Positions 28,660 to 33,423 of a stretch of 33,597 bases of DNA are shown here, piece after piece (within the stretch, counting starts at the first letter, position 1; every line of letters starts with the position of its first letter). A program made the position numbers and the translations under genes. Where the stretch lies: the NCBI GenBank assembly GCA_021108035.1, contig JAIORQ010000071.1, positions 1 to 33,597 on the forward strand, in the 5' to 3' direction. The notes under the pieces were generated by a model. It did no database searches. It had not been told where the DNA came from and saw only the letters and a list, made by a program, of their open reading frames with translations. The stretch is from Bacteroidales bacterium (GTDB lineage: Bacteria; Bacteroidota; Bacteroidia; Bacteroidales; JAADGE01).

Positions 28660-30201
28660 TTATAAATTTTTAATATTATCTTCAAATTTTGAAGGAGTAA
28701 TACCGGCATATTTTTTAAAAGCAATGTAAAAACATGATCTTGTTTTAAAACCTGCATTTTCCCCTATTGCCTCAATGGATAATAACCTGTTTTTTATTGA
28801 ATCGGATAATAAAAACATAGCTTCTTTTACCCTGTATTCATTAATAAAATCATTGTAATTTTTTCGGTATTCGTTATTTATTATCTCGGAAAGATAATTT
28901 CTGTTTGTTGATATTTTTTTTGCCAGTTTATCAATTGTCAGATCATGCTGTGTAAAAGTTTTGTCTGTTTCAAACAGTCTTTCTATTCTTCTCAATATTC
29001 TTTCTTTTTCATCATCGTGTACATTGTTTTGAGAATACGTATTACCGATTTGCAAGTTTTCTTTAATGTTTTTCAGTTCTTTTTCTTTCGACAATACATC
29101 AAGGTTTTTAGAAACAAGAAATTTATATGCTTTATTTTTTTTCCGGTATTGAATAAGAATTATTGTTATTGCAGCACCGGTAAGAATTAATACAATAATA
29201 TATATTATATGAGTTTTTTTATGGTGCTTAATTTTTATGGTTTTTATATTATTTTCGTATTCCAAGCTTTGTATTTGTTTATCTTTTTTCTCGGTTTCAT
29301 ATTTGGTTTTTATATCTGCAATTTGCTTGTGTGTTTCCAAACTAAAAACAGAATCTTTTAAACCGGTATATTGTTTATAATATTCAAAAGCTTTTTTGTA
29401 ATTGCCCATAGCTGAATAGCTTTCTGAAAAAGATTCATAATTTTCTATAATAATTTCTTTTGTATTTAGAGTTTCTGCAATTTTAAGGCTTTTGTCAAAA
29501 TACAATAATGCTTTATTGAACTTACCGAGTTTGTTGTATATTTCTCCGATATTAATTAATGAAGATGCAATTCCCCTTTTATCCTTGATTTCTTCTTTTA
29601 TTTTTAATGATTTTTGATGATATTCCAAAGCATCTTCATAATTGTTTAATTCTTTATAAATAAGTCCAATATTATTTAATGAAGATGCAATTCCTCTTTT
29701 ATCCTTGATTTCTTCTTCAATTTTTAATGATTTTTTATAATATTCCAAAGCTTTTTTATAATTGTTTAAATTTTGATAAATAAGCCCGATATTATTTAAC
29801 AAATTTGTAATTTCAAGTTTATTATCAAGTTTTTTAAATATATGTATCGCATTATTATAGCATTCCAAAGCTTGTTCATGTTTTGATTGGTAATATAATA
29901 CTACACCTATATATTTTAAAGCAAATGCTTGTTCTGTTCTGTTATTTTGTTTTCTCGCGAGTTGCAGTGCAAGGCTTGCAATTTTTTTTGCCTTTTCGGG
30001 AAAGTTGGGGAAATATTCTTTTGCGAGTTCATTTAAAAGTTTTGGTCTTTCGTTTATATTAACGGTTTTTAATAAGTTTTTGAGGCTGTCGGTTTTGCTA
30101 TGGTTTTGTGCAAAACTTGCCGTGCATATTACAATAAACAGTATTATTATTAATGTCTGCCTATTCGGCAGATTGGCTTTTTTGCTGCAATTTCGGTTCA
30201 T
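28660..30201 (-). CDS. TPR - transmembrane - AraC-type transcription regulator
   Basis: 513 residues. Signal anchor 17-31; periplasmic TPR array about 85-285 with units such as NNIGLIYQNLNNYKKALEYY and INIGEIYNKLGKFNKALLYF; then a coiled coil (about 285-325); TM helix 332-350 (IIYIIVLILTGAAITIILI); basic cytosolic linker; AraC/XylS-type double helix-turn-helix at about 405-513 (TIDKLAKKISTNRNYLSEII, IEAIGENAGFKTRSCFYIAF, GITPSKF). This layout is a one-component sensor found widely in Bacteroidota, where periplasmic TPRs gate a DNA-binding domain across the membrane. Two adjacent TPRs are nearly identical at DNA level (exact 120-base period, 29551-29790). Its target genes are not evident; the nearest divergent region is the repeat-rich 30.2-33.4 kb stretch. 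Confidence 0.88.
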   Translation of the reverse strand: MNRNCSKKANLPNRQTLIIILFIVICTASFAQNHSKTDSLKNLLKTVNINERPKLLNELAKEYFPNFPEKAKKIASLALQLARKQNNRTEQAFALKYIGVVLYYQSKHEQALECYNNAIHIFKKLDNKLEITNLLNNIGLIYQNLNNYKKALEYYKKSLKIEEEIKDKRGIASSLNNIGLIYKELNNYEDALEYHQKSLKIKEEIKDKRGIASSLINIGEIYNKLGKFNKALLYFDKSLKIAETLNTKEIIIENYESFSESYSAMGNYKKAFEYYKQYTGLKDSVFSLETHKQIADIKTKYETEKKDKQIQSLEYENNIKTIKIKHHKKTHIIYIIVLILTGAAITIILIQYRKKNKAYKFLVSKNLDVLSKEKELKNIKENLQIGNTYSQNNVHDDEKERILRRIERLFETDKTFTQHDLTIDKLAKKISTNRNYLSEIINNEYRKNYNDFINEYRVKEAMFLLSDSIKNRLLSIEAIGENAGFKTRSCFYIAFKKYAGITPSKFEDNIKNL

Positions 30202-30451: not shown

Positions 30452-30757
30452 AATTAACACTATAAACCAACATAGTCGCACCCCGACTTTCAGATTCCGG
30501 TAATATACAATTTTTCGAAAAGTCATCCGATGAATGATTTTGCAAAAAGCTGATATTTATTTAAGGGTTTGTAATAAAATAAACTGTGCATTTGAACAAG
30601 GTTATTTCATTACAAACCCTAAGCTGCTAACCGGTTAATTACAAATTCATCGGATGAATTAGATTACCGGCAGGAAACTATAACCCTGTCCGCATTTAAA
30701 AACACGGCACAATTTTAAACATTTGACTACACCGGATTTTTTGTTTTTTCTTGTTTA
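30452..30757 (+). repeat. Structured dispersed element, copy 1
   Basis: Outer stem TCATCCGATGAAT (30523-30535) pairs with ATTCATCGGATGA (30645-30657). An inner 19-base stem, AGGGTTTGTAATAAAATAA (30564-30582) with 30602-30620, has one mismatch and a 19-base loop. The 189 bases 30471-30659 differ from copy 2 at only three positions. The 3' tail (30680-30757) contains cggcacaattttaaac followed by a GC-rich and T-rich stretch like a terminator. Tail spacing is shorter than in the other copies by about 30 bases between two cggca repeats. Confidence 0.8.
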
Positions 30758-30770
30758 GAAAACATTTTAG

Positions 30771-30805
30771 ACCGTTATTTTGAAACTCATTTGCAAAATA
30801 ACGGT
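30771..30805 (+). promoter_or_regulatory. Hairpin upstream of the ATPase gene
   Basis: ACCGTTATTTTG (30771-30782) pairs perfectly with CAAAATAACGGT (30794-30805) around an 11-base loop. TATATTTA (30813-30820), a one-mismatch -7 box, follows eight bases later, and the ATG is only six bases after that. The arrangement looks like an operator, and suggests a leaderless or nearly leaderless transcript. Confidence 0.5.
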
Positions 30806-30825
30806 TTTATTAATATATTTACAAA

Positions 30826-31992
30826 ATGATTACACGAAATAAATTAAAAGAAATTGCAGAATCTTTGGAATATTTTCCTGTTGTAGGTATTATTGGTCCG
30901 CGCCAAGTCGGGAAAACCACAATAGCTAAAGAAATATCGAAAATAAAAAAAAAAGAAACTATTTATATTGACCTCGAAAATCCGAGAGATATTGCAAAAT
31001 TGCATGATCCGGTTCTTTATTTTGAAGATAATATTGATAAATGTATAATATTAGATGAAATACAGAATACGCCTCATTTGTTTTCTGTATTACGTTCTAT
31101 GGTAGATTTAAAAAGGGAGCCGGGCAGATTTATTATATTAGGCTCGGCAAGCCCTGAATTAATAAGAGACTCTGCAGAAAGTCTGTCCAGGCGGATAGCA
31201 TATATAGAATTATCCCCTTTTAATTTAACAGAAGTATATAAACCCAAGCAAAAAATTATTGATAAATTATGGCTTACAGGAGGTTTTCCTGATGCGTTTC
31301 TGATAAATAATCCGAAAATTACTGAACAATGGCACTACAACTATATTAAAACCTATGTTGAAAGAGATTTGCCGAATTTGGGTTTAAAGATTGATAAAAA
31401 TATTCTAATGAAATTGTTACAAATGCTGTCGCATATACACGGCGATATTATTAATTACAACAATTTATCAAAATCGCTCGGTTTAAGTTCTAATACTGTT
31501 AAAAAATATGTGAGTTTTTTTGAAAGTGCATTTATTGTGCGATTACTTCAGCCTTTTCATACCAATATGAAAAAACGAATTATAAAATCACCAAAAATTT
31601 ATATCAGGGATACCGGAATATTACATTATTTACAAAACATAAGCGATAAAGAAGATTTGTACGGGAATCCTATAATAGGCAATTCGTGGGAAGGTTTTGT
31701 TATTGAACAGATTATTGAAATACTGCCAAGTAAATATCAAGTATATTTTTATCGTACACATGATGGTTCCGAATGTGATTTACTTATTGCAAAATCGCAA
31801 AAACCTGTTGCTTCAATAGAAATAAAGTATAGTTCGGCACCCAAATTAACAAAAGGGACATTATTTGCTTTTGATGATTTGAATTCAAAAAACAATTTTA
31901 TTGTAACACCTGACAGCGATGATTATTTATTAAAAAAGAATATAAGAGTATGTAATATTTATGATTTTCTGGTAAAATATTTGCCGAATTAA
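30826..31992 (+). CDS. DUF4143-type AAA ATPase
   Basis: 388 residues. Walker A GPRQVGKTT (24-32), Walker B CIILDEIQ (73-80) and sensor ILGSASP (104-110) form an AAA+ core. TGGFPDAF (151-158) is the typical junction. A helix-turn-helix follows (about 200-223, NNLSKSLGLSSNTVKKYV), then the DUF4143 C-terminus: GNSWEGFVIEQI (285-296) and ECDLLI ... IEIK with Asp318, Glu332 and Lys334 in the pattern of a PD-(D/E)XK nuclease fold. The family is large in Bacteroidota and archaea and its function is not established. The gene is bracketed by 14-base direct repeats (30772-30785 and 31995-32008) and by tail fragments of the structured element, suggesting acquisition as a unit. Composition is as AT-rich as its neighbours. 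Confidence 0.88.
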   Translation: MITRNKLKEIAESLEYFPVVGIIGPRQVGKTTIAKEISKIKKKETIYIDLENPRDIAKLHDPVLYFEDNIDKCIILDEIQNTPHLFSVLRSMVDLKREPGRFIILGSASPELIRDSAESLSRRIAYIELSPFNLTEVYKPKQKIIDKLWLTGGFPDAFLINNPKITEQWHYNYIKTYVERDLPNLGLKIDKNILMKLLQMLSHIHGDIINYNNLSKSLGLSSNTVKKYVSFFESAFIVRLLQPFHTNMKKRIIKSPKIYIRDTGILHYLQNISDKEDLYGNPIIGNSWEGFVIEQIIEILPSKYQVYFYRTHDGSECDLLIAKSQKPVASIEIKYSSAPKLTKGTLFAFDDLNSKNNFIVTPDSDDYLLKKNIRVCNIYDFLVKYLPN

Positions 31993-31994
31993 TG

Positions 31995-32061
31995 CCGTTA
32001 TTTTGAAATTAGACTCCATAATTATTTAAAAAAAACCGGTACAGTTTTAAACATTTAACTA
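31995..32061 (+). repeat. Downstream direct repeat and tail-module fragment of the structured element
   Basis: ccgttattttgaaa at 31995-32008 repeats 30772-30785. 32037-32061 (cggtacagttttaaacattt and on) matches copy 1 at 30705-30729 in 22 of 25 positions. Only the tail, not the stem part, is present. Confidence 0.6.
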
Positions 32062-32104
32062 AAGGTCATATTGTCTGTGTATAATTATTCTATTAAGCTT
32101 GAAA

Positions 32105-32145
32105 AATAAAATAAGGTTTTTATGCTGTAAAAACCTTATTTTTAA
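32105..32145 (+). terminator. Intrinsic terminator of the ATPase gene
   Basis: AAATAAGGTTTTTA (32109-32122) pairs with TAAAAACCTTATTT (32128-32141), with a 5-base loop and five T on the 3' side. It lies about 115 bases after the stop. Confidence 0.8.
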
Positions 32146-32355
32146 AGTTTTAACCTTAACAGAAAAAATGATTCGATTTAGTCAACCTTATTACTTTATT
32201 GATTTGTTTTGCATAAAGTAACAAAATTAGTATTGTTTCATAACAGTTCATTTATTAATCCTGTTTGTCAATTTTTAATGTTCTTTCATATATGTTTCGG
32301 TAATGTTCCTTGTAAACGAAATGTAATGATTTAAATATTCTGCGATTTCCATATT
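32146..32355. other. Gene-free stretch without a clear feature
   Basis: Only short frames occur (the longest ATG frame seen is under 20 codons). TTACTTTAT and ATAAAGTAA form a weak 9-base hairpin near 32190-32222. Nothing else was recognised. Confidence 0.5.
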
Positions 32356-32431
32356 AACCTTTAAACGGTTACAACCGTTAAAAGGTAGTTGCAGATCATC
32401 TGCTTTTTAGCGGTTAGTACCGCTTAAAAGC
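32356..32431. repeat. REP-like palindrome cluster
   Basis: Hairpin 1: ACCTTTAAACGGTT (32357-32370) with AACCGTTAAAAGGT (32373-32386), 13 of 14 paired. A small palindrome gcagat-c-atctgc follows at 32391-32403. Hairpin 2: GCTTTTTAGCGGT (32402-32414) with ACCGCTTAAAAGC (32419-32431), 12 of 13 paired. The three-part order is like that of the element at 19881-20009 with other sequences. Confidence 0.6.
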
Positions 32432-32625
32432 TAAATTTTGTAACATACTATGATTATTATAAGCATTTAAAGTACAGGTCATTCAGTTAAATAAGCTAAT
32501 AAGTTTGTTTCTTCTGCAACTATCTGTCTGACAACATAAAAGTTTTGCGAATATATGCTCATACAGTTGCTTTGCACCTTTTACGTTCAAGCACTATTTA
32601 AAATTATTATTAGCACTTGTTGGCA
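32432..32625. other. Gene-free stretch between two repeat elements
   Basis: AT-rich, with no supported coding frame or strong hairpin. It separates the palindrome cluster from copy 3 of the structured element. Confidence 0.4.
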
Positions 32626-32900
32626 GTCAGTTAATTACAAATTCATCGGATGAATAGATTAAGCTTTTCGGAGTAAACTCAACTTTATAACTTTAAGACA
32701 ACTCCGAAAAGTGTCGGTGTGAATACTTTTGCAAAAAGAAAATAAGATTATTGGCTTATAATCAGTTAATTAACAAATTCACACCGACACTAAAACACTT
32801 CAAACTATCACCCTGCCTGCATTTAAAAACCCGGCAAGCATAAAACAAAAAATCCGGCACAGTTTTAAATTTAACTATATCGGGCTTTCTGTTTTGTTTA
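32626..32900 (+). repeat. Structured dispersed element, copy 3 (diverged stem)
   Basis: It opens with an orphan right half-stem (32630-32655, 26 bases identical to 30634-30659). Then CTTTTCGGAGT (32664-32674) pairs with ACTCCGAAAAG (32701-32711), and GTGTCGGTGTGAAT (32711-32724) pairs perfectly with ATTCACACCGACAC (32777-32790). The framework cgaaaagt, ttttgcaaaaag and ttaattaacaaattc agrees with copies 1 and 2, but the stem sequence differs and the inner 19-base hairpin is absent. The tail (32808-32900) contains ccggcacagttttaaattta as in copy 2. Confidence 0.75.
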
Positions 32901-32914
32901 TGTGCCCGTTACAA

Positions 32915-33010
32915 AACCAACGGGTTAACCCGTTGGTTATACCGAACTTATTAATTATTTCAAATAAGTTTTAATTTAGTGAGGGCTTCACTTTAAGTGA
33001 AACCCTCACT
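32915..33010. repeat. Two long palindromes
   Basis: A perfect 24-base palindrome at 32915-32938 (arm AACCAACGGGTT) and a 33-base palindrome at 32978-33010 (arms AGTGAGGGCTTCACTT and its complement, 15 of 16 paired). Both lie between copies 3 and 2 of the structured element. Confidence 0.7.
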
Positions 33011-33029
33011 TTTAAAAATGTTGACTGTC

Positions 33030-33385
33030 AGTCGGAGTGCGACCTCACTTAAATACAAAAATATAATAATAATTAACATGCTATAAATAAACATAGTCGC
33101 ACCCCGACTTTCGAATTCCGGTAATATACAATTTTTCGAAAAGTCATCCGATGAATGATTTTGCAAAAAGCTGATATTTATTTAAGGGTTTGTAATAAAA
33201 TAAACTGTGCATTTGAACAAGGTTATTTCATTACAAACCCTAATCTGCTAACCGGTTAATTACAAATTCATCGGATGAATAAATTACAGGCAGGAAACCC
33301 TTCACCCTGCGCATTTAAACCCCCGGCAAGTTTAAAATAAAAACCCGGCACAGTTTAAATTTAACTATGCCGGATTTTTGGGTTT
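33030..33385 (+). repeat. Structured dispersed element, copy 2 (most complete)
   Basis: An additional outer inverted pair, AGTCGGAGTGCGAC (33030-33043) with GTCGCACCCCGACT (33096-33109), has one mismatch. Stem 33144-33156 pairs with 33266-33278, and the inner 19-base stem is as in copy 1. The tail ends in CCGGCA (33345-33350) pairing TGCCGG (33368-33373), followed by ATTTTTGGG, which has the form of an intrinsic terminator on the plus strand. Confidence 0.8.
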
Positions 33386-33423
33386 GTTTATTATTTTATA
33401 CTACCTTATAACAAGGACGTTGG

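Follow-up and report, generated by a model that had tools for sequence, protein, structure and literature searches.

What keeps the two arms of a repeated sequence complementary while their letters change is the question raised by positions 30452–33385 of the window, that is, of the whole stretch of 33,597 nucleotides analysed here, contig C71 of a Bacteroidales bacterium (GCA_021108035.1; designated G000 and referred to below as the own genome; assembly of 4.96 Mb in 116 contigs). Three copies of a stem-bearing element are located there. They are, with near certainty, decayed members of a family of short inverted-repeat transposons (miniature inverted-repeat transposable elements, MITEs), and both arms of the stem are read here, with moderate confidence, as putative sites of one dimeric DNA-binding protein, rigidly spaced and diversifying in specificity.

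Copies 1 and 2 have 200 nt in common (30460–30659 and 33081–33280) with 5 differences. An initial annotation, made from the letters of the window, gave 189 common bases with three differences, and a recount within 30471–30659 likewise gives three. It also described the stem of copy 3 as having another sequence with every pair Watson-Crick. This is borne out by 15/15 pairs, 7 of 14 arm positions differing from copies 1 and 2 when compared by eye; in copies 1 and 2 themselves, 14 of 15 pairs are Watson-Crick in each. The repeats and their pairing are confirmed, and the family to which they belong is much larger than reported at first. The cores were located with a covariance model (R1) built from 34 paired copies, copy 3 being one of them:

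32706..32794, + strand: core of copy 3 (D type), consisting of an arm, a 52-bp loop and a matching arm (R1, 99.0 bits)
32710..32724, + strand: left arm of copy 3, one flanking base included (inverted repeat I22; 15/15 pairs with the right arm)
32777..32791, + strand: right arm of copy 3 (inverted repeat; 15/15 pairs)
32695..32711, + strand: left end repeat of copy 3, AAGACAACTCCGAAAAG, with the right end missing (by eye, against the family ends)
30517..30662, + strand: core of copy 1 (A type) with a 57-bp palindrome in the loop (R1, 51.9 bits; 14/15 pairs)
30521–30535 and 30645–30659, + strand: arms of copy 1 (14/15 pairs)
33138..33283, + strand: core of copy 2 (A type) with the same inner palindrome (R1, 52.5 bits; 14/15 pairs)
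33142–33156 and 33266–33280, + strand: arms of copy 2 (14/15 pairs)

Mobility is indicated by the ends of the elements and by their flanks. Matches to copies 1 and 3 are dispersed over the own genome. The motif CACTCCGAAAAGTC, with up to two mismatches, occurs 123 times in the own genome (27 times for a reversed control), and pairing of such ends in the fetched loci gives 70 candidate elements. Sixty-five of these are shorter than 200 bp (61–154 bp) and have ends like GAGNCCACTCCGAAAAG. They are inserted into AT-rich targets and flanked by exact 6-bp duplications in 45 cases and by duplications with one mismatch in 12, while shuffled flanks are expected to give 3.3 exact ones. Among the 222 core copies with enough flank for the ends to be checked, 115 have recognisable ends (at least 12 of 17 positions matching; about 4.8 expected from shuffled ends), and in this wider set 53 exact and 26 one-mismatch 6-bp duplications are found against 1.9 and 8.7 expected. 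Besides CTCC, the ends can carry GTAT, GTCT or GTTT before AAAAG. No open reading frame (ORF) of at least 60 aa overlaps copy 3.

Comparison of single sites between relatives, suggested in the initial annotation, showed the element to be absent at one locus in two of them. This locus comprises 285 bp in the own genome (the element together with another repeat) and 12 bp in G012, or, in the comparison with G013, 305 bp and 32 bp; in G004 it is occupied by 564 bp of other sequence. A non-autonomous mobile element had been among the functions proposed at first, and this proposal is strongly supported by that absence, the terminal inverted repeats, the 6-bp duplications and an insertion sequence (IS) with matching ends, which is described below.

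The plan of the element is constant: an end, a 14-bp arm, a core of about 52 bp, the matching arm, a spacer of about 14 bp and the other end. With R1, the core is found in 11 of 14 genomes of the genus (73 matches at E 0.01 in the own genome), in 17 of 21 genomes and 6 of 7 genera of the family, and, with stricter filters, in 16 of 149 sampled genomes and 14 of 132 genera of the order, the own genome being included in each genome count. Among the matches listed, 52 come from G018 and 29 from G014, so that copies number in the tens per genome. Of the 262 alignment rows, 28 that repeated a place already hit or duplicated a sequence were removed, leaving 234; a further 7, in which pairing reached less than 11 of 15 arm positions, were then dropped (L065 and L242, at least, fell below this value only through a register shift), leaving 227. 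The filter is biased towards paired copies, as is the model, having been trained on them. The 227 copies comprise 95 left-arm sequences and 144 distinct arm pairs. Core length is 87–90 in 218 of them, though many loop columns carry little information; the loop consensus is aaTTTtgcAAAAt...CTtaTaatCAgtTAATTAaaAa, and TTTTGCAAAA-like and CAGTTAATTA-like stretches are kept in the core.

A covariance-model search had been proposed in the initial annotation along with the possibility that no further copies with compensatory changes would appear; the outcome was the opposite, many such copies being found. A scan of the genome collection with the loop pattern, blind to the arms, gave 71 loci, of which 43 have arms paired at 10–14 of 14 positions and 28 at 0–8 of 14. 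Three of the latter come from a bin carrying the family and 25 from other, mostly unrelated taxa. Named records with a paired element belong to Salinivirgaceae, Prolixibacteraceae, Odoribacter, Bacteroidales, Chlorobi or Chlorobiota and, in one case, Gracilibacteria. In five viral contigs matching the loop pattern the arms pair at only 5/14; a phage or plasmid origin was rejected after no match was obtained at E 1e-3 with one query per collection.

Several contigs of G012 (among C3, C16, C26, C36 and C53) start or stop within about 120 bp of elements. The elements therefore seem to break assemblies, and the copy numbers are probably underestimates. With a simple ORF caller, 212 of 218 copies lie outside ORFs of at least 90 aa and 6 overlap them.

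Elements with the same ends and without the core form two sister MITE groups, one of about 150 bp (L050, L054, L119, L089, L110, L115) and one of 131–133 bp (L059, L092, L093, L094, L098, L101, L106, L108); sister-group insides are GCCACTAAAACACCAAGACACAAA and GCCACGAATGCACGAATTT. The GCCACGAATGCACGAA and GCCACTAAAACACCAAG groups, inspected by eye, combine the same ends with other insides and have no arms. Since sister groups with the same ends lack arms, arms are unnecessary for movement by whatever moves these groups. Conversely, the arm motif recurs in the same genome in elements with unrelated ends. Such arms, 52–55 bp apart, are present in a second MITE class with ends TTAAATCYGCAAGT, at four listed places (L486, L477, L149, L021), two of which contain the TCATCGGATGA motif that the A type has in the same genome; the core of this class is read the other way round than in the elements of types A to D. 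Within types A to D, oriented by geometry, the core runs in the same direction throughout as judged by eye, and an invertible switch was rejected. Target duplications of an inner element were likewise rejected as the origin of the arms, which are inverted rather than direct repeats at non-palindromic positions (by eye).

The arms change in a coupled manner. Over the 34 cores of the model, pairing in the 15-bp stem amounts to 93.3%, both sides change in 12 of the 15 pairs, and the covariation score is 0.80 compared with at most 0.13 for slid versions; the counts of double-change pairs and of pair types, reached in 51 and 357 of 500 shuffles, respectively, are not clearly above chance. Among 84 comparisons with one base changed per arm, 39 differ at the partner position, whereas 5.6 are expected. 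Identity between 19 arm clusters is 40% in the arms and 55% in the loops; a value of 72% applies to conserved loop columns, which were hand-picked as conserved. The coupling between lineages is direct. The distance between the arms varies by one or two bases at most, and such rigidity over variable bases suggests protein geometry.

All 227 copies fall into 32 arm clusters, and a table made by hand links 203 of them to genomes. Among the copies fetched, a single cluster is present in G109 (12/12) and in G096 (7/7), while seven are present among 55 copies in the own genome. This distribution could reflect a factor specific to each lineage, or else single master copies that gave rise to bursts. 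The IHF consensus occurs exactly in 50 of 227 cores and in 0.2% of random nearby stretches; this is suggestive only, because the core stretch is conserved anyway.

Whether the pairing is that of a helix or of two copies of a duplex-DNA site can be judged from the mismatches. When the helix end (position 2 of 15) and the dyad centre (position 8) are left out, the 144 arm pairs contain 59 G.T, 59 A.C and 58 other mismatches along with 1696 Watson-Crick pairs; with all positions counted, the mismatches are 66, 85 and 132. Nine tRNAs from the same loci show 12 G.T and 0 A.C (Fisher p = 5e-4 versus the arms). Many arm mismatches are probably due to decay after insertion, which dilutes the signal, so that the count over 25 subfamily consensuses (6 G.T, 6 A.C) is the better, though small, test.

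Each arm tends in itself towards an imperfect 11-bp palindrome. Complementarity at the five dyad pairs is 74% over the 19 arm clusters, compared with 38 ± 4% after column permutation, and 74% was reached in 0 of 5000 permutations (one axis only). Mismatches between the arms of the 25 subfamilies concentrate at the dyad centre (7/25 at position 7, 5/25 at position 8, 11 at the other 12 positions together); position 7 compared with all others (16/325) gives Fisher p = 5e-4, the subfamilies being non-independent. Such a concentration is predicted by a dimer that touches both half-sites but not the centre, and is not predicted by a hairpin. Given the lack of wobble tolerance, the palindromes within the arms and the position of the mismatches at their centres, the pairing has the look of a single duplex-DNA site present twice. 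The initial annotation had taken the kept pairing to imply selection for, or copying of, structure; these three features weaken the first half of that statement, and the second, copying by template switching, may still apply.

A candidate mover is encoded in the own genome by an IS of 1817 bp (G000:C56:50776–52592) containing a 545-aa ORF. Its ends, GAGTCCACTCCGAAAAG and, read inward, GAGCCCACTCCGAAAAA, agree at 15 of 17 positions and match the MITE ends. The protein matches DUF772 above the cut-off, NF033551 (NCBIfam, IS1182) at 83.3 bits with a cut-off of 270, and Pfam DDE models below the cut-off; it is, judged from its sequence, a DDE-type transposase. Through its NF033551 match this IS resembles IS1182-like DDE ISs, though the score is far below the curated cut-off. 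A 41% identical protein is present in a 1827-bp IS of G103, a member of another family of the order, with ends GAGTCCACTCTAAAAAG similar to those of the MITEs; D160, D357 and E458, conserved between the two proteins, are taken for a putative catalytic triad. Among 13 relatives in the genus, matches to the transposase were found only in G001, one partial with stops and one weak. Neither IS has arms, and that in C56 also lacks the core. The arms were accordingly rejected as part of the transposase's end, the two ISs and the sister MITEs being without them, and the arm-binding protein is probably not the IS transposase.

The following mechanism could unite these observations. The C56 transposase, or its relatives, would move the elements in trans. 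One dimeric protein would bind both arms as duplex-DNA sites, and the core would carry proteins that bend the DNA so that the arms meet. Should the binding specificity shift, both arms would have to shift jointly, which would produce paired changes without any RNA fold. The arms thus change together probably because one protein must recognise both.

Several observations weigh against this reading. The arm-binding protein is hypothetical, and a search with the IS transposase gave no match in the other 23 genomes covered, several of which have many copies. The C56 IS is flanked by AATATT and AATAAT (5/6 agreement), and the IS of G103 has no flanking duplication (3/6 agreement). Some arms are poor palindromes, for example GTGTCGGTGTGAAT of copy 3. 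Only 21 of the 39 paired one-step changes lead from one Watson-Crick pair to another, the 84 comparisons share members, and the 25 subfamilies are also non-independent. Finally, the predicted folding of one copy as single-stranded DNA (-27.3 kcal/mol) and of another as RNA (-44.4) each reaches z = -6.8 relative to shuffles. A hairpin can form; which form matters is not told by folding. Twin duplex sites are nevertheless the best of four readings and are held with moderate confidence.

The alternative that survives best, although unlikely, is mutational homogenisation, in which template switching copies new mutations from arm to arm and creates matching without selection. The frequency of one-step paired changes and the lack of enrichment of wobble intermediates agree with it, and the palindrome within each arm could be perfected in this way too. 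It accounts for the coupling but not for the plan: the rigid spacing, the persisting mismatches at the dyad centre and the limit of the arms at about 14 bp are left unexplained.

Ranked below it, and improbable, is the recognition of folded single-stranded or cruciform DNA by a nuclease or transposase in the style of REPINs or IS200/IS605, with pairing selected as DNA. The stable single-stranded hairpin is in its favour, as are the two inverted palindromic units at fixed spacing, which are also described for REPINs (PMC3116915). The 6-bp duplications and terminal inverted repeats, however, point to DDE transposition of duplex DNA, an IS and sister MITEs with the same ends do without the arms, and a long hairpin does not predict mismatches gathered at the arm dyad centre.

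The least probable of the four is a structured RNA, a transcribed long hairpin with a conserved internal loop and selected RNA pairing (a small RNA, an mRNA-stability element or a terminator): strong covariation statistics of the kind expected of a helix, the RNA fold, the intergenic position and an upstream gene more often in the same sense (106) than in the opposite one (71) speak for it, and the equal numbers of G.T and A.C, the dyad symmetry within each arm, the lack of an Rfam match, the separate nature of the terminator-like tail and downstream genes without orientation bias (82 versus 78) speak against it.

The tail in question, which the initial annotation had seen as an intrinsic terminator that could make the element a small RNA, follows copy 2:

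33345..33373, + strand: hairpin CCGGCA...TGCCGG followed by ATTTTT (repeats D8, D9, D11, D12)

The ccggcacagttttaaa tail is a separate dispersed repeat with matches also at C8, C25, C92 and window positions 32024–32061; in the DNA read by eye at C8 and C25, no core lies alongside. It was not listed by a terminator scan confined to loops of 3–8. In Rfam the element has no match at the gathering score; two chance-level snoRNA matches lie near elements, and the matches within the window are two tRNAs situated elsewhere. A small RNA with its own terminator was rejected on these grounds, the bias in gene orientation being weak. The CCGGCA...TGCCGG hairpin repeat is seen at window positions 30703–30747, 32842–32895 and 33330–33391, and several of its copies are near contig ends.

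The arms may further be the address of a fast-diversifying, sequence-specific DNA-binding factor that serves MITE families whose ends, and perhaps whose transposases as well, are unrelated; this extension is put forward only tentatively. Arms and core would then be a modular cassette, a targeting or synapsis unit, with twin palindromes around a bend-like core, spread through an order. Its specificity turnover would proceed as in REP-RAYT systems, both sites being updated in concert.

The window copies themselves are composite. Copies 1 and 2 are mosaics of an A-type core, decayed ends, an extra palindrome in the core and arms of the second element type alongside, while copy 3, whose own right end is lost, adjoins the right half of an A-type element (about 32625–32680). 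The remaining features are as follows:

32625..32680, + strand: right half of an A-type element, with loop end, right arm and right end repeat (repeat D4; borders by eye)
30564..30620, no strand: palindrome in the loop of copy 1 (self-match on the other strand)
33185..33241, no strand: palindrome in the loop of copy 2 (matches that of copy 1, other strand)
33030..33109, no strand: second element type beside copy 2, with arms at 33030–33043 and 33096–33109, 52 bp apart (by eye)
30475..30488, no strand: lone arm of the second type beside copy 1 (30452–30496 matches C27 and C16 at 85%)

The arms and gap at 33030..33109 are the same as in locus L021; ends are not recognisable there, this place having failed the end-repeat search. 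The composite at window 32621–32895 (an A-type half, a D-type core and the tail) recurs at C51 (87% over 353 nt) and in another bin, at L377 (JAUVIG010000514.1; 83% over 300 nt), so it was itself copied or inherited. Positions L006:1300–1428, next to an A-type element, hold another dispersed repeat; it is about 130 bp long and is matched many times in G000 and G010. A gene for an AAA_14/DUF4143 ATPase lies between copies 1 and 3 (window 30826–31992), and a tandem 120-nt direct repeat (86%) is located at 29534–29773 within a gene with TPR and AraC-type HTH domains.

Covariation statistics of the type used for calling RNAs are very strong here, yet mismatch chemistry and arm dyads argue against RNA. 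Such dispersed repeats could enter RNA catalogues as false positives. The question that follows is which protein reads the arms, and why its specificity changes fast while the core stays.

Among titles and the beginnings of abstracts, no description of the element was found by topic; the listed text matches to the letters of the end repeats were, by title, plant, animal, human and fungal. What is new is the architecture: variable matched palindromes and a constant core, found with different ends through an order. REPINs are not known to have end repeats or target duplication, unlike the elements described here with their end repeats and 6-bp duplications. No GTAG/CGTC tags were noticed by eye, no RAYT search having been made. 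Porphyromonas gingivalis is a member of the Bacteroidales. Its BrickBuilt element is described as a MITE (PMC4596501), and an IHF site is reported inside Correia elements (PMC2229807, PMC10969869). Correia/NEMIS, RUP, ERIC and BrickBuilt elements are, like those considered here, short and intergenic, with terminal inverted repeats and target duplications. They have one internal sequence per family, whereas here the core is conserved, the matched arm palindromes around it are repeatedly replaced, and the same plan is seen again in elements with unrelated ends. REPINs resemble the elements in plan: they consist of two inverted palindromic units separated by a spacer of set length, are intergenic, show compensatory changes and have palindromes specific to a lineage (PMC3116915); paired inverted units at a set distance also occur here. 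The roles are exchanged, however: the palindromic units of REPINs are conserved and their spacer varies, whereas in the present elements it is the core that is conserved and the arms that vary.

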